A stretch of 52,444 bases of DNA from Bacteroidota bacterium (lineage in GTDB: Bacteria > Bacteroidota > Bacteroidia > Flavobacteriales_C > GCA-002722245), in the NCBI GenBank assembly GCA_026390935.1, contig JAPLEZ010000076.1, forward strand, positions 1-52,444. The letters run 5' to 3'. The notes under the pieces were generated by a model. It saw only the letters and a program-made list of their open reading frames with translations. It had not been told where the DNA came from and did no database searches. The position numbers and the translations under genes are program-made. Shown here one piece after another: positions 13,964-41,295 of the stretch (its first letter is position 1; each line of letters begins with the position of its first letter).

Positions 13964-14094
13964 CCTTATTTATTAGTTTGCGCATGCTAATCGGGCGTCT
14001 CTTGGCATATTTTTTAAACAGTAATTTTTTAAATACCGTATGTCACTAGTTTTTTTTCTTATAACGTTCTTGTGAAATGGGCGGGTACCAATAC

Positions 14095-14625: not shown

Positions 14626-14644
14626 TTTTTAAAATTAATTAGTT

Positions 14645-14806
14645 TCATTGATTTTTTATTACAGAGACACCTCCTGAATGAGTTAATTTATGTAATCCAG
14701 CAGGAATCAATTGAAGTGTTTGACCATCTGGCGCGTGATGAATTCTATACTTGTTTGTTTTAAGATAATCAACAATTTCACTTCGTGATTTCACTCCTTT
14801 AACCAT
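14645..14806 (-). pseudogene. C-terminal stub of an HNH/endonuclease VII-type polymorphic toxin
   Basis: This short minus-strand frame (53 codons from an internal ATG at 14806, open a little further upstream) encodes KSRSEIVDYLKTNKYRIHH, then PDGQTLQLIP, then GLHKLTHSGG. The HH, DGQTxQLIP, LHxxxxHxGG pattern is that of the WHH/LHH group of HNH nuclease toxins, which end polymorphic toxin proteins and cut nucleic acid. The delivery and pretoxin domains are missing. Upstream the frame runs into a short repeat tract and stops. The SUKH immunity gene follows directly. I infer a decayed toxin rather than a working one. Confidence 0.6.
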
Positions 14807-14807
14807 T

Positions 14808-14884
14808 AAATTAGGGACACGCGCTCCGTTAAAAATCAGAAAATCAGGGACAAATCAGGGAAATCAGGGACCGAAATCAGGGAC
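14808..14884. repeat. Short repeat tract, AAATCAGGGA units
   Basis: AAATCAGGGA occurs four times (14841-14850, 14852-14861, 14861-14870, 14874-14883), with degenerate copies at 14808-14818 and 14833-14840. On the minus strand the unit reads TCCCTGATTT. It lies between the RAYT stub and the toxin stub. It could be a target array of the REP transposase or slippage in the former toxin coding sequence, since one frame of the unit encodes VPDF. Confidence 0.6.
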
Positions 14885-14915
14885 AGACGGTATTTATTTG
14901 AATATTCAAACATAT

Positions 14916-15086
14916 TTATTTCTTTTTTGGTCTTCCTTGTTTATTGAAATTAAACGTTTTTCCGCTAAGTTTTTCTATTTTCTTTACAAACTTAGTATCT
15001 CCTGCCGGACGGTTGGTCTTTGTTCGCTCGCGCAAGGTTTTTACTATTTCATCATCCGCCTTTTCTTTTAGATAAGCCTTCCAATC
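14916..15086 (-). pseudogene. C-terminal fragment of a REP-associated tyrosine (RAYT, Y1_Tnp) transposase
   Basis: A 56-codon minus-strand frame ending in a TAA at 14918-14916 encodes DWKAYLKEKADDE, LRERTKTNRPAGD, FVKKIEKLSGK and a GRPKKK terminus. The block R-x-R-T-x-T-x-R-P-x-G-D followed by F-x-x-K-x-E-x-L and a terminal GRPKK is the hallmark C-terminus of RAYT transposases, single-strand DNA Y1 enzymes tied to REP palindromes. The catalytic HUH motif and tyrosine would lie in the missing 5' part. The frame is cut at 15086 exactly where a 224-bp palindromic element begins. No start codon is available, so the gene is dead. Confidence 0.72.
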
Positions 15087-15310
15087 CCCGCCTCTCCAAG
15101 TTTAGCGCAGCGAACTTGGAGATTTTACATCTCAACTTAGAAGCTTTCAGCTTCTTTTTTCTGAAAGAAAAACAGCTTCTCCACTCAAGCACTAAAGTAA
15201 ATAGTTGAACTAGAAAACAAAATCTTTTTCCTACGGAAAAAAGAAGCTGAAAGCTTCTACTCCCACTCGTCATTTCGAAAAGTTCGCTGCGCTAAACTTT
15301 TCGAGGCGGG
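15087..15310. repeat. REP/MITE-like nested inverted repeat, 224 bp
   Basis: The ends are perfect 8-base inverted repeats (CCCGCCTC at 15087-15094, GAGGCGGG at 15303-15310). Just inside each end lies the same 20-base core in opposite orientation (AAGTTTAGCGCAGCGAACTT, 15098-15117 and its complement near 15280-15299). Further in are two more mirror hairpins with AGAAGCT/AGCTTCT stems (about 15141-15157 and 15243-15257). The flanks of the core differ between the two ends but pair within each end (CC/GG on the left, AA/TT on the right), so the hairpin seems to be kept. It adjoins the RAYT stub on its left and a CHU_C fragment on its right. Confidence 0.75.
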
Positions 15311-15314
15311 TGGT

Positions 15315-15428
15315 TTTGACGCGCAAATTGACGTGTACGTTTACATGATAAATTTTAGCGTTTACAACATTAAAAATAAGCTGGAGAAAAAACGGCGCAT
15401 TGGACATGTGTCGGTGATTAGAAAATAA
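15315..15428 (+). pseudogene. Orphan copy of the last 37 codons of a CHU_C (T9SS type B) domain
   Basis: The frame FDAQIDVYVYMINF to RRIGHVSVIRK, with stop at 15426-15428, matches the end of the GH81 protein (13853-13963). By eye I count about ten differences in 108 bases, several of them silent. The copy has no upstream coding sequence: the palindromic element starts four bases before it. It is the remnant of a second CHU_C gene or of a partial duplication, and not a recent target duplication given its divergence. The chitinase gene begins 43 bases later. Confidence 0.8.
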
Positions 15429-15470
15429 ATAAAGATTTTTCTATCTTGCAAGGACTAACTTCTTGTACGT

Positions 15471-16670
15471 ATGAAAAAATTAATTCTTGCTATAGCACTG
15501 CTATTGATCTCCAATCCGTTTTTTTCTCAAACCTTTAATGTATCAGGAGGATATTTTCCTTATTGGCGATCTACTGCCGGCATTGATTTAAGCACTTTCA
15601 ATTATTTATATTACGCTTTCGTAGTTCCTTCCAACTCTGGAGGAGTACTTTTGGAGAACAACTCCACTGCCGCTTTCAATAGTTTTAAAAATGCAACAGC
15701 CAACCTATCTTCCAAAAGATTAATTAGTGTTGGAAGCACCAATTGCCCTACCATGGCTGCAGACGCAACAGCAAGAAAAAATTTTGCTGATGGACTACGT
15801 ATATTTTGCAGAACACATAATTTTGATGGAATTGACATCGATTGGGAAGCCATTAACAACAGCACTGATCAAGCTAATTTCACAGCCTTAATGCACGATA
15901 TTAGAAATGAAATTGATAGCACCGACTTAGAATTTGTCATTACCGTTGGCTACGGAAATTACAACTTGCAATGGTATTCAAACGAGGCGCTACACTTAGC
16001 TGATTTTATCCAAATAATGGTGTATGACCAAACAGGAACATGGTCATCTAGTCCTTATGGAAATCACGCCAGCATGAATCACTATTTAGATGCCGAAACG
16101 TACTGGGTTTCCAGGGGATTTACTCGCGATAAAATGGTAATGGGACTTCCGTATTACGGATATCGATTTAACAGTACCTCTGGCGGATTGGCAGATGCCA
16201 TCACCTACGCTGATATTTTAGCTCACTTCCCCAACGCAACAGCAGCCGATAATCTTTTAAGTGACAACACTGGTTATTATTGGTTCAACGGCGTTGACCT
16301 GATAAAACAAAAAACAAAGTACGCAAAAGACAACGGCTTTAAGGGGGTATTTGTTTGGGAAATAGCGCAAGACAATCCCAATCATTCCCTGTCCTTGAAC
16401 AAAGCCATGAAACAAGAAATTGCTATGGAGATAAGCGAAATTAACAATGTTGCAAAAACCTCCTTTTTCCCTAATCCTGTAAACAATATTTTATTTATTG
16501 AATCAGAAAAAAACCTAGGGAAAATATCAGTTTACAATAGTATTGGACAAGCGGTATATGAGAACACCAGCAATGAAAAGCACATTGAAATTCCAGCCAG
16601 CACTTTCTCGCCAGGCATATATTTTATTCAAAGCAACTCAGTGAACATTGGTAAAATTGTTATTGAATAA
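15471..16670 (+). CDS. Secreted GH18 chitinase-like glycosidase with T9SS type A sorting domain
   Basis: A 399-aa protein. Residues 1-20 are a signal peptide ending FFSQ. The GH18 TIM barrel runs to about residue 315. It carries the DGIDIDWE motif at 119-126 with the catalytic Glu126, a YDQ motif in MVYDQTGTW (substrate-assisted catalysis) and a late FVWEIAQDNP strand. GH18 enzymes hydrolyse beta-1,4-linked N-acetylglucosamine (chitin or related glycans) using the substrate acetamido group. The last 75 residues (FPNPVNNILFIES to SPGIYFIQS) are a type A sorting domain for T9SS export. There is no separate carbohydrate-binding module. The chitin substrate is the usual family activity and is not proven here. 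Confidence 0.88.
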   Translation: MKKLILAIALLLISNPFFSQTFNVSGGYFPYWRSTAGIDLSTFNYLYYAFVVPSNSGGVLLENNSTAAFNSFKNATANLSSKRLISVGSTNCPTMAADATARKNFADGLRIFCRTHNFDGIDIDWEAINNSTDQANFTALMHDIRNEIDSTDLEFVITVGYGNYNLQWYSNEALHLADFIQIMVYDQTGTWSSSPYGNHASMNHYLDAETYWVSRGFTRDKMVMGLPYYGYRFNSTSGGLADAITYADILAHFPNATAADNLLSDNTGYYWFNGVDLIKQKTKYAKDNGFKGVFVWEIAQDNPNHSLSLNKAMKQEIAMEISEINNVAKTSFFPNPVNNILFIESEKNLGKISVYNSIGQAVYENTSNEKHIEIPASTFSPGIYFIQSNSVNIGKIVIE

Positions 16671-19094: not shown

Positions 19095-20153
19095 ATGATC
19101 AGAGTACTATATAGTATATTGTTTTTTTGTGTTTTTCTTTCCGTGCGGAGCTATGGCCAAACGGATAAGGAGTTTTGGTTTGTAGCTCCCGAAATTTCAA
19201 ACACTCACGTTGACCGTCCAATTTACTTGAGGATTTCAGCTGGCGCCAATGACGCCGTTGTTACTATTGAGCAACCTGCCAACGTAGCCCTATTTAATAG
19301 CGGCGTACCAATGGTTATTAATGTCCCTGCAAACACCACGTACTCGCAAGATTTAACCCCATGGATAAATCAAATTGAGAGCGGACAACCAACACCCGAT
19401 GTTATTGAAAACAAAGGTTTACATATTACCTCTACCGAAGACATCACCGTTTACTATGAAGTTTTAGGAACGACTGGCGGAGGTGTGGTGCAAAACTCCG
19501 ATATTTTTGCGCTGAAAGGAGCCAATGCCTTGGGCACTACTTTTTTCACTCCATTCCAAAATTTATTAGACAGCCCCGACAATGCCTATGGGAGTATCAC
19601 AGCCTATTCTGCATTTGACATTGTAGCCGTATACGACAATACTACCATTACCATAACCCCTACGCAAAATGTGGTGGGCCATGCCGCTGGCGTTCCGTAC
19701 ACCATTACATTAAACAGTGGTCAAACATACTCAGGCAGAGCCGCTGGCTTTTTAGCAGCCGAACATCTTAGTGGTACAAAAATAACTTCCAACAAGGCCA
19801 TTGCTGTTACAATAAAAGATGACTCCGTGCGTCAAAACTGGGCTTTAGATTTAGTTGGTGATCAGCTAGTGCCAGTGAGTGTTTTGGGTTCCGATTATAT
19901 AGTTGTTAAAGGAGCGGTGAATGGGAACAATGATGCCGGACTTTATGGAAACAGCAATCCTAATCCAAGTTTTGGTGATAGAGCGGTAATTTGCGCAACG
20001 CAAAATGGGACAACAGTCACCATAGGCGGAGTAATGCAAACAACGCTCTCGGCGGGGCAAACCTACAATTACCAAGTCACTTTACCTGCTGAATACATTT
20101 CCTTATCTCATCCTGCTTACGTATATCCGTATCGGGTTTTGGAGATGAATTAG
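19095..20153 (+). CDS. Piece 1 of the giant adhesin: signal peptide and IgGFc-binding-like domain
   Basis: A 352-aa frame starting from an ATG. Residues 1-21 are a signal peptide ending SYGQ, and the mature part opens TDKEFWFVAPE. This and phrases such as VYYEVLG, GANALGTTFFTPFQ, SDYIVVKG and DRAVICATQNGTTVTI resemble the N-terminal region of bacterial proteins with the IgGFc-binding fold. The last 8 residues are out of frame: just after AYVY the correct continuation VSGFGDELGG is one base away. The stop at 20153 is therefore produced by the frameshift. Confidence 0.75.
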   Translation: MIRVLYSILFFCVFLSVRSYGQTDKEFWFVAPEISNTHVDRPIYLRISAGANDAVVTIEQPANVALFNSGVPMVINVPANTTYSQDLTPWINQIESGQPTPDVIENKGLHITSTEDITVYYEVLGTTGGGVVQNSDIFALKGANALGTTFFTPFQNLLDSPDNAYGSITAYSAFDIVAVYDNTTITITPTQNVVGHAAGVPYTITLNSGQTYSGRAAGFLAAEHLSGTKITSNKAIAVTIKDDSVRQNWALDLVGDQLVPVSVLGSDYIVVKGAVNGNNDAGLYGNSNPNPSFGDRAVICATQNGTTVTIGGVMQTTLSAGQTYNYQVTLPAEYISLSHPAYVYPYRVLEMN

Positions 20154-23100
20154 GTGGTGCGCTCCTTCCTCCTATTGTTTGTACAGGCTCTCGTCAGGCT
20201 AGTGTTTTTAGGGACACCAATGAACCTTTCTACATTAATATATTGGTAAAAAATGGCGGACAAGGAAATTTCAGTCTAAAAAATAACATCACAGGAATCA
20301 CTTCTTCTATTCCTTCCGGATCATTTACAGTGGTGCCCAATACTCCCGTTGCTGGTGATTGGTATACAGCAAGTATTTTATACAACACTACCGACTTCCC
20401 TGCAGGAAGCAGCGGATTGGTCACCAACAGCACCAATGATTTCCATTGCGGAATCATCAATGGAGAAGCAACAGGAGCCGGTTGCCGTTATGGCTATTTT
20501 TCTGATTTCGCATATGTAACAGGTGGTACAGCCAGCGCGAACTCCACTCCTATTTGCTACAATAGCACTGCTACTTTGGTAGTAACTGGTAGCGCCGGAA
20601 ATATTCAATGGCAAAAATCAGCGAATGGTGTTTCAGGATGGGCGAATGTGGTTGGCGGCAGCGGTGCAACTACCGCAACTTATACCACTCCAGCTCAAAC
20701 CTCTACTGCTTATTATCGCGCGGTTTTAACCAAAGGAACTTGTATTTCTGCCTACTCTACAGTAGCTACGGTAACCGTTAATCCGCAAACGGTGGTGGGT
20801 GCTGTAAGCAGCGACGACGTAGTTTGTTCGGGAAGCAACTCAGGAACGCTGACTTTAGCGGGACACACAGGAAGTGTAGTCCGCTGGGAAAGATCAACCA
20901 ATAACTTTGCAACCACTACTACCATTGCAAACGTTACTACTTCACTAACCTATACAAACATTACCGCTACAACCAAATATAGAGCTGTAGTAAAATCGGG
21001 AGTATGTGCTGCTGGAAACTCAAGCAGCGCCACCATCACCGTTGATCCGGTTTCAGTGGGAGGAACAGTTAGTTCAAGCGCTACCGTATGTTCGGGCTCA
21101 AACACAGGAACTTTAACCTTAGCAGGACATACAGGCGATGTAATTCGCTGGGAAAGATCTACCAATAATTTTGTGACCACCACTTCTATTGCCAATGTTA
21201 CTACTTCACTCACTTACACCAACATCGTTGCAACAACTAAGTACAGAGCAGTGGTGCAATCGGGAACTTGCGCCGCAGCAAATTCAGCAAGTGCAACCAT
21301 CACTATTGATCCGGTGACAGTAGCAGGAACAGTAAGTTCAAGCGATACCGTTTGTTCGGGATCAAATTCCGGCACGTTAACCTTGGCGGGGAATACAGGA
21401 AGTGTTTTACGTTGGGAAAGTTCAACCAACAATTTTGCTACTTCAACTGTTATTGCAAATGTCACCACTTCTCAATCTTATACCAACGTTGCCACCACTA
21501 CTAAATACAGGGCAGTGGTACAATCGGGAACCTGCAGCGCAGCTAACTCCGCAAGCGCCACCATCACTGTTGATCCGGTGACAGTAGCAGGAACAGTTTC
21601 TTCCAGCGCAACGGTTTGTTCGGGATCCAATTCGGGAACATTAACTCTGGCGGGACATACAGGAAGCGTGGTGCGTTGGGAAAGATCAACCGACAATTTT
21701 GTGACTACTACAACCATTGCGAATGTCACCACGTCACAAACATACACCAACATTGCAGCCACTGCTAAATACAGAGCGGTGGTGAAATCGGGAACTTGTT
21801 CATCTGCCAATTCCACTGCCGCCACTATCACCGTTGATCCGGTGACGGTAGCAGGAACAGTTAGCACCAGCGATACCGTTTGTTCGGGATCAAACTCTGG
21901 GACTTTAACCTTAGCAGGACATACCGGTAGCGTAGTGCGTTGGGAAAGTTCAACCAACAATTTTGTATCCACCACCACTATCGCCAACGTTACTACTTCT
22001 CAAACCTATACCAACATTGCTGCTACAACTAAATACAGAGCAGTGGTAAAATCAGGGACTTGTTCGTCGGCCAATTCAACTGCCGCCACTATCACGATCG
22101 ATCCGGTGACAGTAGCAGGAACAGTAAGTTCAAGCGACACCGTTTGTTCGAGAAGCAATTCAGGAACTCTAACATTATCGGGTAACACTGGAAGTGTTGT
22201 TCGTTGGGAACGTTCAACCAACAATTTTGCAACTACTACAACAATTGCGAATGTTACCACTTCTCAAACCTATACCAACATTGCTGCTACTACCAAATAT
22301 AGAGCTGTTGTAAAATCAGGAACCTGCTCTGCAGCCAACTCAACTGCCGCCACTATCACCGTTGATCCGGTAACAGTTGCAGGAACAGTAAGTGCAAGCG
22401 ATACCGTTTGTTCGGGATCAAACTCTGGGACTTTAACTTTAGCAGGACATACCGGTAGCGTAGTGCGTTGGGAAAGATCAACCAACAATTTTGTATCCAC
22501 CACCACTATCGCCAACGTTACTACTTCACAAACCTATACCAACATTGCTGCAACTACTAAATACAGAGCGGTTGTAAAATCAGGAACCTGTTCGTCGGCC
22601 AATTCAACTGCCGCTACCATCACCGTTGATCCGGTAACAGTTGCAGGAACTGTTTCTTCTGATGCTACTGTTTGTTCGGGATCAAATTCAGGAACTTTGA
22701 CCTTGGCGGGTAACACTGGAAGTGTTGTGCGTTGGGAAAGATCTACAGATAATTTTGTAACCACAACTACAATAGCCAACGTTACTACATCTCAAACCTA
22801 TACCAACATTACTGCTACCACTAAATACAGAGCAGTGGTAAAATCGGGTACCTGTTCTTCGGCCAATTCAACTGCCGCCACTATCACCATCGATCCGGTA
22901 ACAGTTGCAGGAACAGTTTCTTCCGACGCTACGGTTTGTTCAGGATCAAATTCGGGAACTTTAACACTCGCAGGTTATACAGGAAGCATAGTTCGCTGGG
23001 AAAGTTCAACCAACAATTTTGTGGCTACCACCACCATCGCCAACGTTACCGCTTCTCAAACCTATACCAACATTGCTGCAACTACTAAGTACAGAGCTGT

Positions 23101-26100
23101 AGTAAAATCGGGAACCTGTTCTTCTGCTAATTCTGCAAGTGCCACCATTACTATAGATGCACCTACTGTTGCAGGTACGGTTTCTGCGAATGCAACAGTT
23201 TGCTCGGGTAGCAATTCGGGAACTTTGACTTTAGCGGGTAAAACAGGAAGTGTTGTGCGTTGGGAAAGTTCAACCGATAATTTTGTGACTACTACTTCAA
23301 TTGCAAACGTTACAACATCACAAACCTATACCAACGTTGCCGCTGCAACTAAGTACCGAGCAGTGGTGAAATCAGGAACCTGTGCTTCAGCCAATTCAAC
23401 AAGTGCAACTATTTCTGTTGATGCCCCAACTGATGCGGGAACTGTTAGTTCTGATGCTACGGTTTGCTCTGGAAGCAATTCGGGAACTTTGACCTTAGCA
23501 GGTTATACTGGAAGCATAGTTCGCTGGGAAAGTTCAACCAATAATTTTGTAGCTACCACCACTATCGCCAATGTTACTGCTTCTCAAACCTACACCAACA
23601 TTGCTGCAACTACTAAATATAGAGCAGTGGTGAAGTCGGGAACTTGTTCTTCGGCCAATTCAACAAGTGCAACTATCACCATTGATCCAGTTTCTGTTGG
23701 TGGCACAGTTTCTTCAGATGCAACGGTTTGCTCGGGAGCAAACTCGGGGACATTAACATTGGCTGGTCATACCGGAAATGTTTTGCGTTGGGAAAGTTCA
23801 ACTAATAACTTCGCTACTGCAACAACAATAGCCAATGTAACAACTTCACAAAACTACACCAATCTTGTCACAGCAACTAAGTACAGAGCAGTAGTTCAAT
23901 CGGGAACTTGCGCCGCAGCAAATTCTGTGAGCTCATCTATCACATTAGATGTTCCAACAGTAGCTGGATCAGTGACATCAGATGCTACTGTTTGCGCCGG
24001 AGGAAATTCGGGAACACTCACTTTAGCAGGACATACTGGAAGCATTGTGCGTTGGGAAAGTTCAACAGATAATTTTGCCACCACCACCAACATTGTCAAT
24101 ACAACAACAACGCAAAATTATTTGAATCTATTGGTGACTACTAAATATAGAGCAGTGGTACAATCGGGAACATGCTCTTCAGCGAATTCTGCCAGCGCAA
24201 CCATCACCATCGGTAATATCACTGTGGGCGGAACGGTGAGCAGCGACGCTACAGTTTGTTCGGGATCCAACTCGGGTACTTTAACCTTAGCCGGACATAC
24301 AGGAAGTGTATTGCAATGGGAAAGTTCGGTGGATAATTTTGTAACGCCTGTTGTTATAGCCAATGCTACTACATCACAAAACTATTTAAACTTAGTGGCT
24401 ACTACAAAATACCTTGCGCTGGTGAAATCGGGAACCTGTACTTCTGCCTACTCAAGCGAAGTTGAAATTACAGTAGGAGCGGTTTCCGACGGTGGTTCAG
24501 TGAATAGCGATGTTGCTGTTTGTTCAGGAGTCAATTCGGGTACCTTAACATTGGTAAGCTACAGCGGAAGTATTTTAAACTGGGAAAGTTCAACCGATAA
24601 TTTTGCCACCAGCACAAACATTGTCAATACTACAGCAACTCAAACATACACCAATCTTGCAGTGGCCACTAAATACAGAGCCGTGGTGCAATCGGGAATT
24701 TGTGCGCCAGCAAATTCTGTCGCAGCTAGCATCACCATCGATCCTACCACTGTAGCGGGAACAGTATCATCCGATGCTACAGTTTGTTCTGGAAGCAATT
24801 CAGGAACATTAACTCTAGCAGGAAATACAGGAAGTGTTGTACGCTGGGAAAGTTCTACCGATAACTTCGCAACCATCAATAGCATTGCAAACGTCACTGC
24901 GTCACAAACCTACAACAACCTCATTGCTGCAACAAAGTACAGAGCCATTGTTCAATCGGGAACCTGTTCCTCAGCAAACACAAATGAAGTTACCATTTCT
25001 ACCGACGCCCCCACCCTTGCCGGAACAGTAAATTCAGATGCTACAGTTTGTGCTGGTGCCAATTCGGGAACCTTAACTTTATCGGGATATACAGGAAGTA
25101 TTTTGAATTGGGAAAGTTCAACTGATAATTTTGCCACCACCACGAATATTGCTAATGTAAGCAACACTCAAAATTATTTGAATTTACTCAGCTCCACAAA
25201 ATACCGAGCAGTGGTGCAATCGGGAACTTGTGCTGTAGCGAATTCAACAAGTGCAACAATTACCATCGATATTCCTACTGTGGGCGGCACCATCAATTCC
25301 GACACTTCAGTATGTTCTGGCGCTCATTCTGCAACACTTAATTTAGTGGGTTATACCGGAACTATTGACCATTGGGAAAGTTCAAGCGATAATTTTGCCA
25401 CCATCAATACCATTGCCAACACTAGCGCTTCACAAAGTTATACCAACCTCACCAGCACCACAAAATACCATGCGGTAATCACATCAGGTGTTTGTCCTTC
25501 TGCTAATTCAGCCGATGCTACTATTTCAATAGATGCTACAACAGTAGCTGGTACGGTGAGTTCCGACAGTACCGTTTGTGCTGGTTCAAATTCGGGAACC
25601 TTGAATTTAAGTGGGCACACTGGAAGTATCGTGCGCTGGGAAAGTTCAACCGATAATTTTGTGTCAACAACAACCATTGCCAACGTAACGGCCACACAAC
25701 TTTATAATAACATTGATAGCACCACCAGATACAGAGCAGTGGTAAAATCGGGAACGTGCGCCGCAGTTAATTCAACAGCCGCCTTAATTACTACCGATGC
25801 TCCAACGGTTGCTGGAACCTTGAGTTCCGACACTACAGTTTGCTATGGAGCAAATTCAGGAACATTAAATTTAGTGGGTACAACAGGAAGCATCGTTCGT
25901 TGGGAAAGTTCAACCGATAATTTTGTTAGCGCTGTAAATATTTCCAATGTTGCTTCCTCCTACTCTTACACCAATAATACTGCAACAACAAAATACAGAG
26001 TGGTGGTACAATCGGGAACTTGTTCAGCCAGCAACTCCAATACTGCAACGGTAACAATTGATCCTACAACATTGGGAGGCTCAGTGGACACCAACACAAC

Positions 26101-27034
26101 GGTTTGTTTCTTCTTCAATTCTGGAACATTAAATTTATCCGGACAAACAGGATCAATAGTCGGCTGGGAAAGTTCTACCGATAATTTTGCAACAACAAGC
26201 AACATTGCAAATACAAGCTCAACAAATAATTATACTGCGTTAACAGCCACCACAAAATTCCGCGCAGTTATTAAATCGGGGGTTTGTCCAATTGATTATT
26301 CCACAGCCGCTACTATTACTACAGATGCTCCAACAGTTGCAGGAACGGTGAGTTCCGACAGTACCGTTTGTTCGGGCTCAAATTCGGGAACATTAAATTT
26401 AAGTGGATACACTGGAAGTATTGTGCGCTGGGAAAGTTCAAGCGATAATTTTGTATCAACAACAACTATTGCAAACACAACGACTGCGCAACTTTATAAC
26501 AATTTAATTAGCGCAACGAAATACAGAGCGGTGGTGAAATCGGGAACTTGTGCCGAAGCAAATTCAACAGCCGCTTTAATCTCTATTGATGTTCCAACAG
26601 TTGCAGGAACTTTGAGTTCCGACACTACTGTTTGCTCGGGAGCAAATTCAGGAGTATTAAATTTAGTGGGCAATACAGGAAGCGTTGTTCGCTGGGAAAG
26701 TTCTAACGATAACTTCTCAACTGTTACCAATATTTCCACAGTTGATTCCTCATACTCGTATACCAACAACACCGAAACAACTAAATACAGAGTGGTGGTG
26801 CAATCGGGAACCTGCCCAGCCAGCAATTCCAATGCTGCAACTGTAACGATTGATCCTACAACCTTGGGAGGAAGTGTTGGGATAAACGCAACGGTTTGTT
26901 ATTTCTCCAATTCAGGAACTTTAAATTTATCGGGACAACGAGGATCAATATTGGGTTGGGAAAGTTCTACCGATGATTTTGCAACGACAACTCCTATTGC
27001 AAATACAAGTTCAACAAATATTTTTCAGCGTTGA
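20129..27034 (+). CDS. Piece 2 of the giant adhesin: end of head domain, one divergent and 24 regular Ig-like repeats
   Basis: The frame is open from 20129 (VSGFGDELGG) with no good start; a TTG at 20243 is only a formal start. Residues to about 20520 finish the head domain (PPIVCTGS, NEPFYINILV). A divergent Ig-like repeat follows (about 20536-20797, PICYNSTATLVV), then 88-aa repeats 1-24. Each repeat has a cysteine near position 10 (TVCSG), a tryptophan near 30 (VRWES), a tyrosine near 61 (KYRAVV) and a cysteine near 70 (SGTC). This is an Ig-fold pattern with a likely internal disulfide. The frame breaks within repeat 24 after NTSSTN, giving the false end IFQR. Confidence 0.8.
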   Translation, partial: VSGFGDELGGALLPPIVCTGSRQASVFRDTNEPFYINILVKNGGQGNFSLKNNITGITSSIPSGSFTVVPNTPVAGDWYTASILYNTTDFPAGSSGLVTNSTNDFHCGIINGEATGAGCRYGYFSDFAYVTGGTASANSTPICYNSTATLVVTGSAGNIQWQKSANGVSGWANVVGGSGATTATYTTPAQTSTAYYRAVLTKGTCISAYSTVATVTVNPQTVVGAVSSDDVVCSGSNSGTLTLAGHTGSVVRWERSTNNFATTTTIANVTTSLTYTNITATTKYRAVVKSGVCAAGNSSSATITVDPVSVGGTVSSSATVCSGSNTGTLTLAGHTGDVIRWERSTNNFVTTTSIANVTTSLTYTNIVATTKYRAVVQSGTCAAANSASATITIDPVTVAGTVSSSDTVCSGSNSGTLTLAGNTGSVLRWESSTNNFATSTVIANVTTSQSYTNVATTTKYRAVVQSGTCSAANSASATITVDPVTVAGTVSSSATVCSGSNSGTLTLAGHTGSVVRWERSTDNFVTTTTIANVTTSQTYTNIAATAKYRAVVKSGTCSSANSTAATITVDPVTVAGTVSTSDTVCSGSNSGTLTLAGHTGSVVRWESSTNNFVSTTTIANVTTSQTYTNIAATTKYRAVVKSGTCSSANSTAATITIDPVTVAGTVSSSDTVCSRSNSGTLTLSGNTGSVVRWERSTNNFATTTTIANVTTSQTYTNIAATTKYRAVVKSGTCSAANSTAATITVDPVTVAGTVSASDTVCSGSNSGTLTLAGHTGSVVRWERSTNNFVSTTTIANVTTSQTYTNIAATTKYRAVVKSGTCSSANSTAATITVDPVTVAGTVSSDATVCSGSNSGTLTLAGNTGSVVRWERSTDNFVTTTTIANVTTSQTYTNITATTKYRAVVKSGTCSSANSTAATITIDPVTVAGTVSSDATVCSGSNSGTLTLAGYTGSIVRWESSTNNFVATTTIANVTASQTYTNIAATTKYRAVVKSGTCSSANSASATITIDAPTVAGTVSANATVCSGSNSGTLTLAGKTGSVVRWESSTDNFVTTTSIANVTTSQTYTNVAAATKYRAVVKSGTCASANSTSATISVDAPTDAGTVSSDATVCSGSNSGTLTLAGYTGSIVRWESSTNNFVATTTIANVTASQTYTNIAATTKYRAVVKSGTCSSANSTSATITIDPVSVGGTVSSDATVCSGANSGTLTLAGHTGNVLRWESSTNNFATATTIANVTTSQNYTNLVTATKYRAVVQSGTCAAANSVSSSITLDVPTVAGSVTSDATVCAGGNSGTLTLAGHTGSIVRWESSTDNFATTTNIVNTTTTQNYLNLLVTTKYRAVVQSGTCSSANSASATITIGNITVGGTVSSDATVCSGSNSGTLTLAGHTGSVLQWESSVDNFVTPVVIANATTSQNYLNLVATTKYLALVKSGTCTSAYSSEVEITVGAVSDGGSVNSDVAVCSGVNSGTLTLVSYSGSILNWESSTDNFATSTNIVNTTATQTYTNLAVATKYRAVVQSGICAPANSVAASITIDPTTVAGTVSSDATVCSGSNSGTLTLAGNTGSVVRWESSTDNFATINSIANVTASQTYNNLIAATKYRAIVQSGTCSSANTNEVTISTDAPTLAGTVNSDATVCAGANSGTLTLSGYTGSILNWESSTDNFATTTNIANVSNTQNYLNLLSSTKYRAVVQSGTCAVANSTSATITIDIPTVGGTINSDTSVCSGAHSATLNLVGYTGTIDHWESSSDNFATINTIANTSASQSYTNLTSTTKYHAVITSGVCPSANSADATISIDATTVAGTVSSDSTVCAGSNSGTLNLSGHTGSIVRWESSTDNFVSTTTIANVTATQLYNNIDSTTRYRAVVKSGTCAAVNSTAALITTDAPTVAGTLSSDTTVCYGANSGTLNLVGTTGSIVRWESSTDNFVSAVNISNVASSYSYTNNTATTKYRVVVQSGTCSASNSNTATVTIDPTTLGGSVDTNTTVCFFFNSGTLNLSGQTGSIVGWESSTDNFATTSNIANTSSTNNYTALTATTKFRAVIKSGVCPIDYSTAATITTDAPTVAGTVSSDSTVCSGSNSGTLNLSGYTGSIVRWESSSDNFVSTTTIANTTTAQLYNNLISATKYRAVVKSGTCAEANSTAALISIDVPTVAGTLSSDTTVCSGANSGVLNLVGNTGSVVRWESSNDNFSTVTNISTVDSSYSYTNNTETTKYRVVVQSGTCPASNSNAATVTIDPTTLGGSVGINATVCYFSNSGTLNLSGQRGSILGWESSTDDFATTTPIANTSSTNIFQR

Positions 27035-28452
27035 CTGCCACTACAAAATTCCGAGCTGTAATTAAATCAGGTGTTTGTCCAATTGATCATTCCACTGCAT
27101 CAACCATTACAGTAGATGTGCCAAGTGTTGGTGGAAGCATAAGTTCCGACACCACAATTTGCGCGGGAGTAAATTCAGGAACTTTGTATTTAAGTGGAAA
27201 TACAGGTAACGTTTTAAGATGGGAAAGTTCAGACAATGATTTTACAACGGTAAGTATTGTTAGCAATGCCACTCCTACTCTAGTTTACTCCAATTTAACA
27301 GCCAGCACTAAGTACCGTGCAGTAGTAAAATCAGGGGCCTGTCCTTTCACCAAATCAAATCCTGCAATCATCAGTGTTGATTCGGTATCCAATGGCGGAC
27401 ATGTTACATCTGACATCACCGTTTGTTTGGGTTCAAACGCCGGAACATTATCATTAAGTGGAAATGTAGGAAGCGTTTTATACTGGGAGCAATCAACCGA
27501 TGATTTTGCAACAACATCACCAATTCCTAACACTTCAAATACCTTAGTTTACAACGATATTTCAGTACCCACAAAATACCGTGCAGTGGTACAATCGGGA
27601 ACATGTAACCCAGCAAATTCTGATAGTGCTATGATCAGCATTTATCCTTTATCTGTTGGCGGACAAATTTCTACCAGCGCTCATGCATGTTATGGAAATA
27701 ACAGCGGATCATTAACGCTTCAAAACTATGAAGGTACAGTGCAAAGCTGGGAAATTTCAGAAGACAACTTTGCTAACTTCAGTACGATTCCGAATGCAAC
27801 AATTAATCAATCTTACTCCAATTTGGTGAACACCACATATTACCGAGCAGTGGTAAAATCGGGAACTTGTCCTCAAGACATCTCTAGTTCAGCCATCATT
27901 ACCGTTGACCCTACTACTGTTCCCGGAGCAGTGATCAGCAACACCACCGTTTGTCCGGGAAGCAACGCAGGAACTTTAGCATTAATTCAACACACAGGAA
28001 GTATATTGAACTGGGAAAGTTCTACCGATAATTTTGCTACAAGCAATGTCATTGCAAACACCAACATCATATACAACTACAGCAGCTTAGAAGACACCAC
28101 CTGGTACCGCGCAAGCATTAAATCGGGAACCTGCGCGCAAGCTTATTCGACTCCAGTAAAAATTACAGTTCTGCCACATGCCCTTGGTGGTGAAATTTTA
28201 TCGGATACAGTGGTTTGCTACGGAAAAAATTTGGGTACTTTATCCTTGAAAAATCAAAGAGGAGATCTCTTGTATTGGGAAAGCACCACCGACAATTTTG
28301 TGAAAAGCACCAAGCTTTTAATATACACTACCACTAAGCAGTATGTGAACTTAACTGCTACTACCAAGTACAGAGCGGTATTGCGATACGGTAACTGTCC
28401 GGAAGAAAAATCACAACCTGTTACCGTAGAAGTGGATCCGCTCTTCTCCGTA
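20798..28452 (+). repeat. 29 tandem coding repeats with an exact 264-bp period
   Basis: Repeat starts (the glycine of G-T/S-V-S) fall at 20798 plus multiples of 264: checked at 21854, 25550 (18 periods), 26342 (21 periods) and, after one missing base, 27133 and 28189 (28 periods). All 29 units are 88 codons. Similarity is highest among units 2-9 and lowest in 25-29. Larger blocks are duplicated: units 5 and 7, and 9 and 11, are near-copies (528 bp apart). Units 19-20-21 match 22-23-24 (792 bp apart). Confidence 0.92.
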
Positions 28453-28977
28453 AATTTAGGAGCCGACACCACCATTTGCTTTAAAAAAGGAGAATGGCTG
28501 GGCAGTGTTTCAAATTCATATCCAACAGTATTGTGGTCGAATCAATCCACCGCTCACAACATCACTGTGAAAGAACCTGGACAGGTATGGGTGAAAGTAA
28601 CCAACAACGCTTCCTGCTCGGCTACCGACACGGTTGATCTTTCTGCTTACTGTGAAAACGTAGTGATTTGTTTTCCTGATGTGATCACCCCAAACAACGA
28701 TGCTATAAATGATAATTTTAAACCATGCGTTGAAATTGGCGGAGTACGATCAGAGGGCAGCGACGAGGTACTCAATGAAAATGTAATCTTCAAAAAATTT
28801 GAAGTTCACGACAGATGGGGCATCAAAATTTTTGAATCGACCAACAAAATTCCAAAATGGAACGGTGATGATTTAGTGAATTCGGTTTCGGCAGGCACCT
28901 TCTACTACTATGTTACTTTTACCGACATGAACGGTGTAGAGCAGGAACAAACAGGTTATGTAACGGTGATTAAATAA
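27031..28977 (+). CDS. Piece 3 of the giant adhesin: last repeats and CHU_C (T9SS type B) domain
   Basis: A 648-codon frame whose TTG at 27031 is only the first formal start; it continues repeat 24 directly (LTATTKFRAVIKSG). Repeats 25-29 are the most diverged of the array but keep the two cysteines and the tryptophan. After 28452 a short Ig-like module (VNLGADTTICFKKGEW, with VLWSNQSTAHNITV) leads to the sorting domain. This shows CFPDVITPNNDAINDNF, FEVHDRWGIKIFES and YYYVTFTDMNG up to VTVIK, the standard CHU_C layout. Confidence 0.8.
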   Translation: MTATTKFRAVIKSGVCPIDHSTASTITVDVPSVGGSISSDTTICAGVNSGTLYLSGNTGNVLRWESSDNDFTTVSIVSNATPTLVYSNLTASTKYRAVVKSGACPFTKSNPAIISVDSVSNGGHVTSDITVCLGSNAGTLSLSGNVGSVLYWEQSTDDFATTSPIPNTSNTLVYNDISVPTKYRAVVQSGTCNPANSDSAMISIYPLSVGGQISTSAHACYGNNSGSLTLQNYEGTVQSWEISEDNFANFSTIPNATINQSYSNLVNTTYYRAVVKSGTCPQDISSSAIITVDPTTVPGAVISNTTVCPGSNAGTLALIQHTGSILNWESSTDNFATSNVIANTNIIYNYSSLEDTTWYRASIKSGTCAQAYSTPVKITVLPHALGGEILSDTVVCYGKNLGTLSLKNQRGDLLYWESTTDNFVKSTKLLIYTTTKQYVNLTATTKYRAVLRYGNCPEEKSQPVTVEVDPLFSVNLGADTTICFKKGEWLGSVSNSYPTVLWSNQSTAHNITVKEPGQVWVKVTNNASCSATDTVDLSAYCENVVICFPDVITPNNDAINDNFKPCVEIGGVRSEGSDEVLNENVIFKKFEVHDRWGIKIFESTNKIPKWNGDDLVNSVSAGTFYYYVTFTDMNGVEQEQTGYVTVIK

Positions 28978-29184: not shown

Positions 29185-30270
29185 CTACTTTATGAATCTA
29201 ATTTGAAGATTTAATTTTATTTTGTTTACTCCTTTATCAGGATAAATTTGCCCAAATCCATGTTTTTCAGGATCGGGCGTTTCAAGTCTAGTGTTAGAAA
29301 ACAAATAGTCTTCAAAATTTTTGGTAAAATAAAAGTGGTAGCAAATTATTTCACCATCGTCTTTAACTATTAAATAACCTCCTGTTGCTTGATAATCTCT
29401 TTTCCATACTTCTGCCGCCCTCATTCCAAGTGCATAATCAGTTAAAAATTTTTTCATTATTAACTCATACATGCTTGAATTAATTTTCAAATCATAACCA
29501 AAAGAGTTTTTCGAAGATACTTTGTTTATGAATTTAGGAATTGTGTTTTCAGAACTAATGTCATTAGAATAAAAAAGAACTAAAATTTCAGATAGTATTT
29601 TTTCAAAGTTATAATCAATAGTCTGAAGGTTGCTTTTGAAAATATTATTCTCTACATTTTCGTGTTGTAGTGATGCACCAGATTCTGCTAGTAATTTGAA
29701 CTTGCGCGAAAATTCCCTTGTTTTATTGATTTCTTCAATTTTCTCGCCAGTAAGTTTTTTGCCTGCGATTATGTAAGTAAAATTCGTTGCACCACTTGCA
29801 TTAACTAATGTTGAAGGTCTTCCCAATTGAGATTTAATACTGAACCCCATTGAAGGTGTAATAAAAGTATTTGGATCTTCTATTTGAATAGTTATGTCAT
29901 TTTTTTGTTTTGATTTTGCTTTTAATGTGTAAATCGAAAAAGACGATAAGAATTCTTCGATTTCGGGGATTTCAAATGATCCTTTTCCTTTTTTAGAGTT
30001 TTTTATTTTTTCGAAACAAAGCTTTGCATTTTTAACGAAATCATTTATAGGTACTTTAAAAAGCAATTTTTCGTCTGAAATAATAATTAGACTATCGCTA
30101 TAAGAGAATTCAATAATTCTTTCTTTTTCGTGCCTAAGTATTTTTACAATGGGATAAAACAATCCTTTTATCTTACTGAAATTTTCACCACCTAGGAAGA
30201 GTTTTCCGTCAGCTAACAATTTAAGTAATGCGTATGGCTCGCTCCATTCTCCTTTATTTCCAGTCAGCAT
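29185..30270 (-). CDS. HpaII-family type II restriction endonuclease
   Basis: A 361-aa protein opening MLTGNKGEWSEPYALLKLL and continuing ADGKLFLGGENFSKI. This N-terminus is characteristic of HpaII-type restriction enzymes, and the length (about 360 aa) fits. HpaII enzymes cut CCGG, and the methylase partner has the matching family features, so CCGG is the expected but unproven site. The start overlaps the end of the methylase gene by seven bases (TTATGCTGA), so the two are translationally coupled with the methylase first, the safe order for host protection. No controller gene is visible. I see no frameshift or truncation. Confidence 0.8.
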   Translation of the reverse strand: MLTGNKGEWSEPYALLKLLADGKLFLGGENFSKIKGLFYPIVKILRHEKERIIEFSYSDSLIIISDEKLLFKVPINDFVKNAKLCFEKIKNSKKGKGSFEIPEIEEFLSSFSIYTLKAKSKQKNDITIQIEDPNTFITPSMGFSIKSQLGRPSTLVNASGATNFTYIIAGKKLTGEKIEEINKTREFSRKFKLLAESGASLQHENVENNIFKSNLQTIDYNFEKILSEILVLFYSNDISSENTIPKFINKVSSKNSFGYDLKINSSMYELIMKKFLTDYALGMRAAEVWKRDYQATGGYLIVKDDGEIICYHFYFTKNFEDYLFSNTRLETPDPEKHGFGQIYPDKGVNKIKLNLQIRFIK

Positions 30271-31535
30271 AATGTTTTTATTCCAATCGTTTCTAAAATT
30301 TTATTTGCTGTAGCTTGAATTGCGGGTACAGCAACAGAATTTCCAAATTGCTTGTATGCAGAAGCATCTGCTACTGGGATAACATAATTGTCAGGAAAAC
30401 CTTGAAGTCTAGCCCATTCTCTAGGAGTCATTTTACGAACTCCTTCACGATTTACTCCGCCTTTAATTTTTGTTTCGGGAGTAAAGTCCGTGATTCGATC
30501 ATCTATGACTAAATTTCTTTCGCGTCCCATGCCTCCGCAAACAACGGCGTTAGCTATACCTGTATCAGGAATAATTTCAAATCCAAAACCATTGCCTTTA
30601 TTTGCATGGCGATTCTTATGATTATGCAGAGTTTGCAAGTATTGTACAGAAAGATAGTAACGAGTCGGTACAGTTTTTTTCTCTTTCACATTTGCGAAGG
30701 TTACTTTTTTCTCTAAAGGTTTGGGATATTCAAATTCAGTAATATTCAAGTCTTTTCTGAATCCAACAATGTATATTCTTTCGCGATTTTGAGGAACACC
30801 GAATTCTTTTGCATTGATGATTTGCGGTTCAGGAACATAATAACCAAGGTCGTTTCGTAAAACATTTAAAATGGTTTCTAATGTTTTTCCTTTATCATGA
30901 CTTCTTAGTCCTTTTACATTTTCAAGAAAAATTGCTTTTGGTTTTTTTCGTTTGATTATTTCTGCAACATCAAAAAACAGAGTCCCTCTTGTATCATCAA
31001 AGCCACCGCGCTTACCTGCGATTGAAAATGCTTGACAAGGAAATCCTGCACATAAAACATCAAATCCATCGGGAACATAGTTTTTAACTTGGTCTTTTGT
31101 TATGTCTCCGAATGGAACTTCTCCAAAATTTGCACGATATGTTTTTTGAGCTTCCTTATCCCATTCACTGGTAAAAACACACTTTCCTCCGAGATTTTGC
31201 ATTGCCAGTCTAAAACCACCAATGCCAGCGAATAGGTCAATGAATTTAAAACTGTAATTGTCAGGCGTAGGGAATGGAACATTTTCAACTTCAAAGAGAA
31301 GATGTTGCAGCGCTTCTTCTGCCACTAAAGATAAATGCTCTTCGTCTTGCTTGTAACTGACGTACTCTTTTAGAACCTTTAGAGCCTCTTTCTTGTAATG
31401 TTTTGATACGCCATTATCAATATTGTGAAGGTAATGGGTTAAAACGGCCTTTCTATTGTCAATAGGTTCAACAAGCCTAATCTGAAGGCGTTTACCGTCA
31501 AATTCATTAATACTTATTTTTTCTATTAGCTTCAT
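30264..31535 (-). CDS. DNA (cytosine-5-)-methyltransferase, HpaII-like
   Basis: A 423-aa C5 methylase. After an N-terminal extension of about 95 residues, motif I (FIDLFAGIGGFRLA), the catalytic Pro-Cys loop (GFPCQAFS), motif VI (ENVKG), motif VIII (QNRERIYIVG) and motif X (KQFGNSVAVP) come in the standard order. The target recognition region between VIII and X contains RYYLSVQYLQTL and GNGFGFEIIPD. The frame is open ten codons upstream from a TTG (31565), but the ATG at 31535 (MKLIEKISINEFDG) is the better start. It protects CCGG-type sites from the endonuclease encoded by the overlapping next gene. Confidence 0.92.
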   Translation of the reverse strand: MKLIEKISINEFDGKRLQIRLVEPIDNRKAVLTHYLHNIDNGVSKHYKKEALKVLKEYVSYKQDEEHLSLVAEEALQHLLFEVENVPFPTPDNYSFKFIDLFAGIGGFRLAMQNLGGKCVFTSEWDKEAQKTYRANFGEVPFGDITKDQVKNYVPDGFDVLCAGFPCQAFSIAGKRGGFDDTRGTLFFDVAEIIKRKKPKAIFLENVKGLRSHDKGKTLETILNVLRNDLGYYVPEPQIINAKEFGVPQNRERIYIVGFRKDLNITEFEYPKPLEKKVTFANVKEKKTVPTRYYLSVQYLQTLHNHKNRHANKGNGFGFEIIPDTGIANAVVCGGMGRERNLVIDDRITDFTPETKIKGGVNREGVRKMTPREWARLQGFPDNYVIPVADASAYKQFGNSVAVPAIQATANKILETIGIKTLC

Positions 31536-31858
31536 TGATTGTATTAAAAATTTGTACTTGTGCAATTTCGTGAATTTTAAATTATGTCCTTCCTACAAAA
31601 CCTAAAACTTTCCAGCAATCTTTCAACATTTTTTTATTCACTTCCTGTCTCGTTCAATATTTCTTTCAATTATGAATATCCAAAAGACTTGATTAATCAT
31701 ATGATCTTGATTTTTGTTACTCAACCCAGCAATTCCGCATCTGTAATTGCAGATTTAAGCGCAGCGGAATCTGAAATTTTTTTTCAGCGATATTCAATCG
31801 CGATGAGTGTTGAGCAATACCCTTGCTCCCACCCTATTTCAATTCACAAAAGCTTTCA
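31536..31858. other. 323-bp gap between the methylase start and the NHL gene end
   Basis: No convincing gene: a plus-strand frame from 31584 runs on into the antisense of the NHL gene and looks like a shadow. It contains the right hairpin repeat (31777-31804) and an imperfect AGATT/AATCT hairpin followed by eight T at 31777-31784. The promoter of the R-M operon should lie near 31560-31600, but I see no good consensus. Confidence 0.45.
31777..31804 (-). repeat. Right copy of the short hairpin repeat beside the R-M cassette
   Basis: On the minus strand it reads ATCGCGATTGAATATCGC, TG, then eight A, matching the plus-strand copy at 28993-29017 at almost every position. The pair is inverted and encloses about 2.8 kb holding the R-M genes. 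Confidence 0.5.
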
Positions 31859-34768
31859 CTATTGCTTCATCAACTTCATATCGATAACAGAATTTTCAGA
31901 AGAAATTTTTACGATATACATTCCTTCTAAATATGTTGAAATATCAATTGAAATATTGTTACCTGCAGCTAATTTATTTTGTGCGAAAATTTGTTTTCCA
32001 AGCACATCATAAACTTCAATACCGAAAGCACTTTTTGATTGAGGCAATTGAATATTCACTTGGGTATTGGCTGGATTTGGCCACATTTCAATACCAACAC
32101 CTTTATCAACGTTTGCAACAGAACTTACAACCGAACAAATATTCACTGAATTTTGAATGCAATAATTTAAACTATTGTTGGAAGTATCATTGGCTCCTAA
32201 ATCAACGGTGTACAGCGAGCTAACACCAACACCAACGATATCAACTTTCACTTTGTAAGTACCACCCGACAAATTATTAAAAACATAATGACCGTTGGCA
32301 TCTGTTGTTGTTTTTTGAACCGACTGAGAAGGTGGAATTTTGTCAAGAATAATGTCTAATCCCGGAATTGGATCATTGGTTTTTAAAGTACCATCAGAGT
32401 ATACATAACCTGAAACACTTGAACTTCCTCCTACATCTGCCAAAAGTTGAATCACCGAAATATCAGTAGTTGTAATTACACACGACGCTGCATCTATAGC
32501 AGATAAAACGTTCCAGTCGAATTTTCCATCTTGAAGTGTTGGCACCAATTTAGGGTAAGTGACTGCATCGGGCACAGCACGTAAAATGTACTTTCTTGGA
32601 AGCACTCCATCAAAAGCATAGGTTCCATCATTGTTAATTGTTGCTGAGCGAATTTGGTCCCATCGGTTATTTGCTGTTGAATCAGCAAACAAAAGCACCA
32701 CACCTACTTTTACTGGTTGCACACCATATGTAACTGTACCATGAATATTAGCACGATTGGTCACGTTGATAGTGGTAGTTTTTGAATCCTTACATTTATT
32801 GACGTCGGTATAAGTATAAGTAATGGTGTTTTTACCAATTAAAGCAACTGATGGATCAAAATTATTTCCAACAACGCCCAATCCCGAATACACTCCGCCT
32901 ATCGGACTACCACCGCTCAACAATACAGCACCAGCACTTTTACAAACATCACTTAATGCACCCATTGACACAACCGGCAATGGATTCACTGTTAATTTAG
33001 CAGAACCTGCAGCCTGACAGCCATTCACATCTTTCACTGTACAAATATAAGTTCCAGCCTTTGTTCCCTTGGTAGTTCGCGCTGTGCCTGTACCTTGTGA
33101 GCTCCAAGCGTAAGTAGCATAAACACCCGCATCAAAAATCGCTGTATCACCTGCACAGATAGTTTGATCTGGCATAACAGGACTCACCACCGGACCGTTT
33201 ACTGTTAGCACACCTGTTGCAGTTGCTTTACATCCATTGGTGTCGGTAACAGTACATGTATAATTCCCAGCCGAACTTCCAGTAGTGGTACGAGATGTTC
33301 CAAATCCTTTATTACTCCACAAATACGCTTTGTATAAGCCAGCATCAAAAGTTGCCACAGGATCACCGAAGCATATTTTTTTATCGGCGATAGATGGAGT
33401 TGGTAAGGCATTAACTTTAAGAATAGCAGTTGTTTTAGCCATGCAACCATTTTTATCTGAAACGGTGCAAGTATATTTTCCGGGTATAGTTCCAGTTGTA
33501 GTTTGTGTTGCTCCCGTTCCATTATCGCCCCATGAATAAGAAAAGTAAGTCCCTGCATCAAATATCGCGGCAGGATCACCAGCGCAAATAGCTTGATCAG
33601 GAATTACTGGAGCTATAGGATTAGGATTGACAGCCACCGATAAAAATGAACTTATTCCGGTTCCACAGGCATTTACTGCCGATACAGAAATTGATCCGGC
33701 ATCGCCAACATTACCAGCATCCACAAAAATTTTCGTGGTCCCATTTCCGCTGATAATCGTCCATCCCTTTGGCACTGTCCACATATAACTATTTGCACCT
33801 AATACCGGATTGACTGAGTAACTCTGTGCTTTGGCGAAAGCACATTGGGCCAATGCTCCAGTAATAATGCCAGGATGAGCCGGTGCAAAACAAAAAACCT
33901 GCACTCTGTTGTTTCTGTCGTCGGTAATAAACGCATCTCCGTTTTTATTAAATCCAATACCATAAGGATTTGAAAAATTACCATCACCTGTACCTGGAGT
34001 ACCCCACTCTAAAATAAAATCCCCTTTGGATGAAAATTTTTGAACGCGACTATTTCCATTGTCCACCACACAAACATCGCCAGCAGCATCTACTGCGATT
34101 CCGGTTGCACCATTAAACTCACCAGTTTTGCTTCCTGCAACTCCCCATTTAAGCAAAAATGCACCATTTGCTTTGTACATCTGCACTTCGTTTTTAATGG
34201 CATCGGTAACATACACATCACCACCTGCACTCACAGCAATACCTGTTGGACCTTGCATTGCGTCTACATTACCCCATTTTAATAGAAATTTACCTTCAGA
34301 ATCAAAGCACTGAATTCTGTTATTACCAGCATCAGCCACATATACATTTCCAGCACCATCCACTGCAAGACCTTTCGCACCAGAAAACTCACCATCTTTT
34401 GAACCGTAATTACCCCATTGCATTTTGTAGGCTCCAGTAGCATCAAACTTGTAAATTTGATTGGTGAATCCTTCAAAAACGTAAACGTATCCCGTTGCAT
34501 CTACAGCAATTCCCTGCAATGATGGAGTAGAAATTACAGGTATTTTCCATTCTAAAAGGTATGATCCCTTGCTATCGAATTTTTGAATTCTATTGTTACC
34601 TTGATCAACAATGTACATGTTGTCAGCAGCGTCAACAGCGATTCCTTGAGGTGTGCTAAACTCACCGTTTTTACCTCCGAAAACTCCCCATTGATTTTTA
34701 TATACCTGAGCTGTCAATGACCCAACAATAAACAAACACAGGAAAATAGATTTAATTACAACTTTCAT
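31859..34768 (-). CDS. Secreted NHL-repeat beta-propeller protein with PKD-like modules and T9SS type A domain
   Basis: A 969-aa exported protein with a signal peptide (residues 1-20). Six NHL blades follow (about 25-295), each with patterns such as GIAVDAADNMYIVDQGNNRIQ. An Ig-like module (about 300-385) comes next, then three repeats beginning IPDQAICAGD, IADKKICFGD and MPDQTICAGD (about 390-600) and a fourth, more distant one. A SdrD-B/Cna-B-like module (about 775-860, with TTTDANGHYVFNNLSGGTYK) precedes a type A sorting domain (about 895-969, WPNPANTQVNIQLP to LEGMYIVKIS). NHL propellers usually bind proteins or glycans. A surface or matrix role is likely, and no enzymatic motif is seen. 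Confidence 0.85.
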   Translation of the reverse strand: MKVVIKSIFLCLFIVGSLTAQVYKNQWGVFGGKNGEFSTPQGIAVDAADNMYIVDQGNNRIQKFDSKGSYLLEWKIPVISTPSLQGIAVDATGYVYVFEGFTNQIYKFDATGAYKMQWGNYGSKDGEFSGAKGLAVDGAGNVYVADAGNNRIQCFDSEGKFLLKWGNVDAMQGPTGIAVSAGGDVYVTDAIKNEVQMYKANGAFLLKWGVAGSKTGEFNGATGIAVDAAGDVCVVDNGNSRVQKFSSKGDFILEWGTPGTGDGNFSNPYGIGFNKNGDAFITDDRNNRVQVFCFAPAHPGIITGALAQCAFAKAQSYSVNPVLGANSYMWTVPKGWTIISGNGTTKIFVDAGNVGDAGSISVSAVNACGTGISSFLSVAVNPNPIAPVIPDQAICAGDPAAIFDAGTYFSYSWGDNGTGATQTTTGTIPGKYTCTVSDKNGCMAKTTAILKVNALPTPSIADKKICFGDPVATFDAGLYKAYLWSNKGFGTSRTTTGSSAGNYTCTVTDTNGCKATATGVLTVNGPVVSPVMPDQTICAGDTAIFDAGVYATYAWSSQGTGTARTTKGTKAGTYICTVKDVNGCQAAGSAKLTVNPLPVVSMGALSDVCKSAGAVLLSGGSPIGGVYSGLGVVGNNFDPSVALIGKNTITYTYTDVNKCKDSKTTTINVTNRANIHGTVTYGVQPVKVGVVLLFADSTANNRWDQIRSATINNDGTYAFDGVLPRKYILRAVPDAVTYPKLVPTLQDGKFDWNVLSAIDAASCVITTTDISVIQLLADVGGSSSVSGYVYSDGTLKTNDPIPGLDIILDKIPPSQSVQKTTTDANGHYVFNNLSGGTYKVKVDIVGVGVSSLYTVDLGANDTSNNSLNYCIQNSVNICSVVSSVANVDKGVGIEMWPNPANTQVNIQLPQSKSAFGIEVYDVLGKQIFAQNKLAAGNNISIDISTYLEGMYIVKISSENSVIDMKLMKQ

Positions 34769-34904
34769 AAAATGCTTTATTAAAATTCATCCAATGCATT
34801 TTCCAAGCAGACAATGATGGAAACGCCGAGCTAAAATAAGAAATGAAAACAGGAGATACAAACTAAATTTTATCAAGTAAGTGCTTGAACAAAAAGAAAA
34901 TAAA

Positions 34905-35738: not shown

Positions 35739-35861
35739 TTAAATATCGGCTTTAAAGGTAAACTAAATCAATAATGAATTTCACTAAGTAAAAAATAGCT
35801 TACACTAATTGTGCGTTTTAATAAATATGAAAGTGCTGTACATTGCTGAAAAGAATTCACT

Positions 35862-36425: not shown

Positions 36426-36428
36426 AAA

Positions 36429-36869: not shown

Positions 36870-37010
36870 TAGTTTGGACAAATACAAATCCAAACCATGA
36901 TTTAAGACAAACAAAAGAGTTGCCCCTATCAATACCGCACCATATGTACTTCCTCCCCACTTTTATTATTAAATTCCTTCCGTCCTTAAAATTCTTATTA
37001 GTTTTATCCA

Positions 37011-38770: not shown

Positions 38771-38777
38771 TTCAAAT

Positions 38778-41293: not shown

Positions 41294-41295
41294 CC

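Follow-up and report, generated by a model that had tools for sequence, protein, structure and literature searches.

Twenty-nine in-register Ig_7 units in a putative T9SS-exported stalk protein from a Bacteroidota bacterium

We analyzed 52,444 nucleotides from the genome of a Bacteroidota bacterium (hereafter, the window). A gene on its + strand (19095..28977) probably encodes a T9SS-exported surface protein whose stalk is a tandem array of Ig_7 units. We propose that the units resemble each other and share one length because of an inherited unit length, the duplication of blocks of units, and purifying selection, and we give this reading as a whole, including the exported stalk, a probability of roughly 0.78. 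The type of protein is ordinary. What is unusual is an old, indel-free array that is under constraint at the protein level without homogenization at the DNA level.

The array (20798..28452, + strand) consists of 29 units of 264 bp each, except that unit 24 has 263 bp. The initial annotation had already described 29 in-register units of 264 bp, and this was borne out by the fit to a consensus unit, by a hidden Markov model (HMM) of the unit, and by TRF, which reports a period of 264. The autocorrelation of the array region peaks only at multiples of 264, and it reaches 0.62 at a lag of 264, as compared to a background of 0.32. The best offset for the consensus unit is 0 for units 1-23 and -1 for units 25-29. 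Similarly, the starts of the HMM matches are exactly 264 apart from 20798 on, or 263 across unit 24. Once unit 24 is excluded, the other 28 units align without gaps in 88 columns, of which 11 are invariant, including C10, W30, Y52, and C70. (Two cysteines, a tryptophan, and a tyrosine were said to be fixed in all of the units. This is correct for the 28 aligned units, but unit 24 has phenylalanine at position 52.) Compensating indels had been named in advance as the observation that would speak against a fixed length, and they are practically excluded in the units of the window and of its ortholog (described below): across 1275 pairwise comparisons of these units, a gapped alignment outscored the ungapped alignment for only 20 pairs, by at most 3 score units. 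The units were also thought to diverge strongly at the 3' end; instead, divergence is not confined there and rises along the array. A search of the region against Rfam found no RNA element, and the inverted repeats within the array are all imperfect, chance-like pairs.

The order of the gene's parts is a signal peptide, an IgGFc_binding-type head, a diverged "unit 0," the 29 Ig_7 units, a short domain, and a CHU_C signal. If the frame were unbroken, it would encode about 3,300 residues. The signal peptide and the first part of the head are in frame 1 at 19095..20153 (PF17517, E = 7.7e-32; the N terminus was judged by eye to be signal-peptide-like). Unit 0 (20525..20797) has a spacing of 273 and matches both Ig_7 (E = 1e-06) and the unit HMM (27 bits). 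As for the array itself, units 1-3 and the 3' units score 34.2 and 30.0 bits against Ig_7 (PF19081) when scored as whole proteins, and the curated cut-off is 27.3 bits. After the array comes a short domain that is not Ig_7 (28453..28671, as judged from the translation; it lies outside the unit HMM), and then a type IX C-terminal sorting domain of the CHU_C family (28672..28968; PF13585, E = 1e-11, 45.3 bits with a cut-off of 27). All of these features are on the + strand. The C-terminal domain scores 24.9 bits against TIGR04131, the T9SS type B sorting domain, which is below that model's cut-off of 35, so it is only the likeness to CHU_C that makes it type B-like.

We then examined the structures. 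The initial annotation had suggested an Ig-like module, and besides the match to Ig_7, an AlphaFold2 model of two adjacent units (mean pLDDT of 95) contains two Ig-like beta sandwiches, so an Ig-like fold is predicted. Among known structures, the model is most similar to fragments of GhpA (Z about 10), with ordinary Ig tandems scoring nearly as high. The unit profile matches three proteins in the PDB: RemZ (E = 3.6e-27), RemA (E = 3.1e-17), and GhpA (E = 3.9e-12). In contrast, the sequence of the head has no match in the PDB. In the model of the head (459 amino acids, pLDDT of 85), the first 120 or so residues partially match TM1070 (1nc7; Z = 10.0, rmsd 4.5, 109 residues aligned), and the last 110 residues have weak matches to pilin- or adhesin-like folds. 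Given these partial and weak matches, with no clear match to a full-length fold, we drew no conclusion about the head's function. We know of no tested bacterial ligand for IgGFc_binding-type heads, and we found nothing direct in the literature on this exact protein family. Of 295 Bacteroidia genomes, 65 have the head, within open frames that look complete and range widely in length, from about 600 to 6194 amino acids.

The domain layout suggests that the protein is most likely a fibrillar adhesin. Such proteins have been defined by tandem stalk domains together with at least one known adhesive domain (PMC8286594). The 29 Ig_7 units and unit 0 form a tandem stalk; a candidate for the adhesive domain is the IgGFc_binding-type head, which lacks a clear fold match. 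We propose that this domain would be the distal head, that the roughly 30 Ig_7 modules would form a beaded rod, and that the CHU_C domain would route the protein through the T9SS and retain it at the cell surface. At about 4 nm per Ig domain, 30 domains would span roughly 120 nm. (We infer both the orientation of the head and the length of the rod.) The genome does encode a T9SS, as shown by SprA and 15 matches to PorP/SprF. PorP-like proteins are believed to hold type B proteins at the cell surface (PMC9143113); none of the 15 matches is beside the array gene.

The unit profile has 131 matches in this genome, 77 in another genome of the genus (G002), and 13, 2, and 0 in three others, so the genus is highly variable in its number of these stalk domains. 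Immediately downstream of the array, on the - strand, are an HpaII-type restriction endonuclease and a C-5 cytosine methylase (29185-31565). Two other regions of the window (6732-16670 and 31859-45636) encode other T9SS substrates, namely GH81C with a CHU_C domain, GH18, and an NHL/PKD protein, as well as CBM6-bearing metallophosphatase and endonuclease/phosphatase proteins. Between the GH81C and GH18 genes, there is a lone SUKH (SMI1/KNR4) immunity-like gene (14095-14625, - strand). An intergenic stretch at 14833-14884 contains a short tandem repeat with a period of 20 and 2.5 copies.

The ortholog in G002 is at the same place, beside the same Tex-like gene, and has one intact frame of 2783 amino acids (L039:4065-12413) with 23 units, all of 264 bp. 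(Between 29 and 46 kb, the window has no alignment to the syntenic G002 contig.) Units 1-3, 12-18, and 25-29 of the window are one-to-one best matches of units 1-3, 9-15, and 19-23 of G002. Units 19-21 (25550..26341) and units 22-24 (26342..27132) both match G002's units 16-18 best, and trees of both genomes' units mostly agree with these pairings. Units 19-21 and 22-24 are thus two copies of a 792-bp block, the second being one base short in unit 24. Units 19 and 22 are 83% identical in DNA, as are units 20 and 23, and the dS between the copies is 0.58, which is under the value between the species (about 0.8-1.2). Either the block was duplicated in the window's lineage or one copy was lost in G002's lineage. 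The remaining difference is in units 4-11 (21590..23701), the region where the units are most alike: these eight units correspond to five in G002 (units 4-8). So, the difference between 23 and 29 is accounted for by whole units, with three extra in the block of units 22-24 and three extra among units 4-11. A comparison of unit numbers between related genomes had been recommended by the initial annotation, and the numbers have indeed changed by whole blocks.

The extent of the gene is defined by the ortholog and the Pfam domains. In this genome, the gene has two single-base losses. The first frame break is inside the head domain (20126..20129), where there is one base fewer than in the ortholog, and the second, identified by comparison with the ortholog, falls within unit 24, next to several consecutive Ts (27018..27026). 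(It had been noted that only one base is missing. This is true of the array but not of the gene, because of the other loss near 20128.) With two frame breaks, the full-length protein may not be made in this genome. A programmed frameshift is unlikely: the frame stays open at that point in the ortholog and in the paralogs on contigs C7 and C2, and the paralog on C89 breaks elsewhere. In that paralog (L012, about 2012-2074, - strand), the frame changes between the head and the array. Another paralogous array, on C50 (L017), shifts its frame as well as its phase partway through a unit (4737-4900), close to where the contig ends; it resembles a contig-end chimera or a deletion, so we left it out of the evidence.

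The breaks may be real mutations or they may be assembly errors. If they are real, this genome's copy of the gene could be a pseudogene, with the array as a relic. We consider this possible but doubtful. The two losses relative to an intact ortholog, together with the third break in the C89 paralog, fit with this idea. However, dN/dS past the second break is 0.125 (units 25-29), which is similar to the 0.145 before it (units 20-21), and the C-terminal part has a dN/dS of 0.141. Since constraint is not visibly relaxed downstream of the breaks, any inactivation would be recent. Also, the break beside the run of T may be a sequencing error. Across the rest of the window's orthologous coding sequence, there is no net frame break relative to G002.

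Next, we asked what keeps the units alike. The initial annotation had offered two explanations, strict structural constraint or homogenization by recombination of whole units, and we found that each is right in part. Neighboring units can be about 80-95% alike in protein while their silent sites are nearly fully diverged, so it is selection on the protein that keeps them alike. For example, units 4-8 (leaving out the pair 5/7) have 92% protein identity, a pS of 0.55, a dS of 0.98, and a dN/dS of 0.058. (The dS values are near saturation and hence rough.) By this measure, units 4-8 appear to be about as old as the split between the species. In the array, dN/dS is 0.06-0.15, which indicates purifying selection; for other genes compared between the two species, it is 0.035 (UvrB), 0.054 (Tex), and 0.062 (GH81C). 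Furthermore, among unit pairs from other Bacteroidota arrays with at least 85% protein identity, the median pS is 0.24, as compared to 0.55 in the window and 0.56 in its ortholog. This high pS at a given protein identity implies an unusual age for an array with modules so alike.

Recent homogenization of the array is contradicted by these data, because the silent sites of similar units would have become alike too. It is therefore unlikely that gene conversion or unequal crossing over continues at whole-unit steps and preserves both the likeness and the equal length of the units. Concerted evolution has been proposed for Periscope-type stalks (PMC8201768), and we do see some signs of it: the species differ by whole units (29 and 23), a 792-bp block was duplicated, and units 5 and 7 have 92% DNA identity (dS of 0.29). 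But most units are closer to their ortholog than to any neighbor, and where amino acids are shared, the same codon is used at 59.6% of positions in orthologous units, 52.5% in neighbors, and about 46-50% in most distant units. The near-saturation of silent sites in units 4-8 also argues against it, as does the absence of any repeated 51-mer in the array. The mean DNA identity of adjacent units is 68.5% and the maximum is 83%. The closest units are mostly 2-4 positions apart, as expected after block duplication. In short, recombination by whole units has changed the number of units but has not homogenized most of the array. (Because no 51-mer is repeated, the number of units could be assembled; a caveat is that a draft assembly could have collapsed extra copies that are perfectly identical.)

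Another explanation is that the Ig fold of Ig_7 units permits exactly 88 residues, with every indel being lethal. We consider this mostly refuted and quite improbable. On the one hand, the 52 units of the two species have no indels despite divergence to about 45-55% identity. At the rates seen in relatives, length differences would be expected in about 6 of 25 neighboring pairs, and the window has just one, between unit 0 and its neighbor. (Naively, so few differences would have a probability of 0.0006, but this value ignores the kinship of the units and is a guide only.) On the other hand, among 359 units from relatives and paralogs, 233 have 88 amino acids, 74 have 89, and the remainder have 85-94, so 126 depart from 88; the changes cluster near positions 40, 48, 7, and 54. 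Also, in some arrays the units are strictly 267 bp throughout. So the constraint in the initial annotation holds as purifying selection but not as a strict limit of 88 amino acids, and a length inherited from the founder, together with selection, explains the equal lengths better than an absolute limit does. Under our preferred reading, each unit would derive from an 88-amino-acid founder by duplication of whole units or blocks, purifying selection on the folded module would remove indels and most amino-acid changes, and most duplications would date from the time of the split from the sister species, or from before it.

Lastly, the idea that selection scrambled the silent sites to prevent recombination among near-identical modules is very improbable. 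Among units with 90-97% likeness in protein, the likeness in DNA is mostly about 80%, which does resemble an engineer's anti-recombination design (full protein identity with about 70% DNA identity; PMC4083281). But codon sharing at every distance is above what codon usage would predict, adjacent units share no fewer codons than in shuffled unit orders, and drift alone, given the array's age, is enough of an explanation.

In long proteins, neighboring domains are mostly under 50% identical, and this is believed to keep misfolding in check. For bacterial stalks that depart from this pattern, the explanation offered has been selection for variable length via DNA identity (PMC8201768, PMC4660218). 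We tentatively suggest that many near-identical Ig modules in this array are "frozen," with each one selected separately, and with no homogenization of the DNA over at least one species split, although we would not bet on it. If so, the modules would do a repeated job, such as binding a ligand or assembling side by side, and high identity between neighbors need not be a by-product of recombination. Whether the modules function one by one, or the stalk tolerates near-identical neighbors, becomes a testable question. More broadly, comparing silent sites and orthologous units is a way to tell constraint from homogenization in repeat arrays.

Finally, we compared this protein to known systems. Like the Periscope Proteins (SasG, Rib, and Sgo_0707; PMC8201768), it has an N-terminal functional domain carried by a tandem-domain stalk, and its length varies by whole units. 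Periscope repeats are longer than 50 residues and at least 80% identical, a level that the amino-acid sequence here reaches in much of units 1-11 but not in units 12-29. However, the length variation of Periscope Proteins is linked to repeats that are highly identical in DNA, whereas the window's units are old and their DNA identity is lower, as described above. Also, the Periscope definition refers to variation between close strains, and we observed 29 versus 23 units between two species. The ice-binding adhesin MpAFP (PMC4083281) has a long run of constant-length Ig-like domains in its Region II, but these are about 120 repeats of 104 amino acids that are identical even in DNA, and MpAFP is a Ca-dependent RTX adhesin, not a T9SS substrate.

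Other comparisons are found within the Bacteroidota. GhpA, the grappling hook protein of Aureispira (PDB 9flp and others), is a giant surface protein (5898 amino acids) with related Ig-like domains, but at only about 15-24% identity; hook assembly and predation are features of GhpA. RemA and RemZ of Flavobacterium johnsoniae (PDB 8gl6 and 8gl8; PMC10994853) are T9SS substrates with stretches that are related in sequence to Ig_7 units, and RemA is a gliding adhesin; RemZ differs in being a 1114-residue type A substrate that lacks a long Ig_7 array. Also in F. johnsoniae, SprB is a repetitive gliding adhesin of 669 kDa with a type B C-terminal domain (PMC9143113). SprB is encoded beside its PorP-like partner SprF, unlike the array gene. 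The likeness to SprB is one of layout: both are very long, repetitive proteins with a type B or CHU_C-like C-terminal signal in a host with a T9SS.
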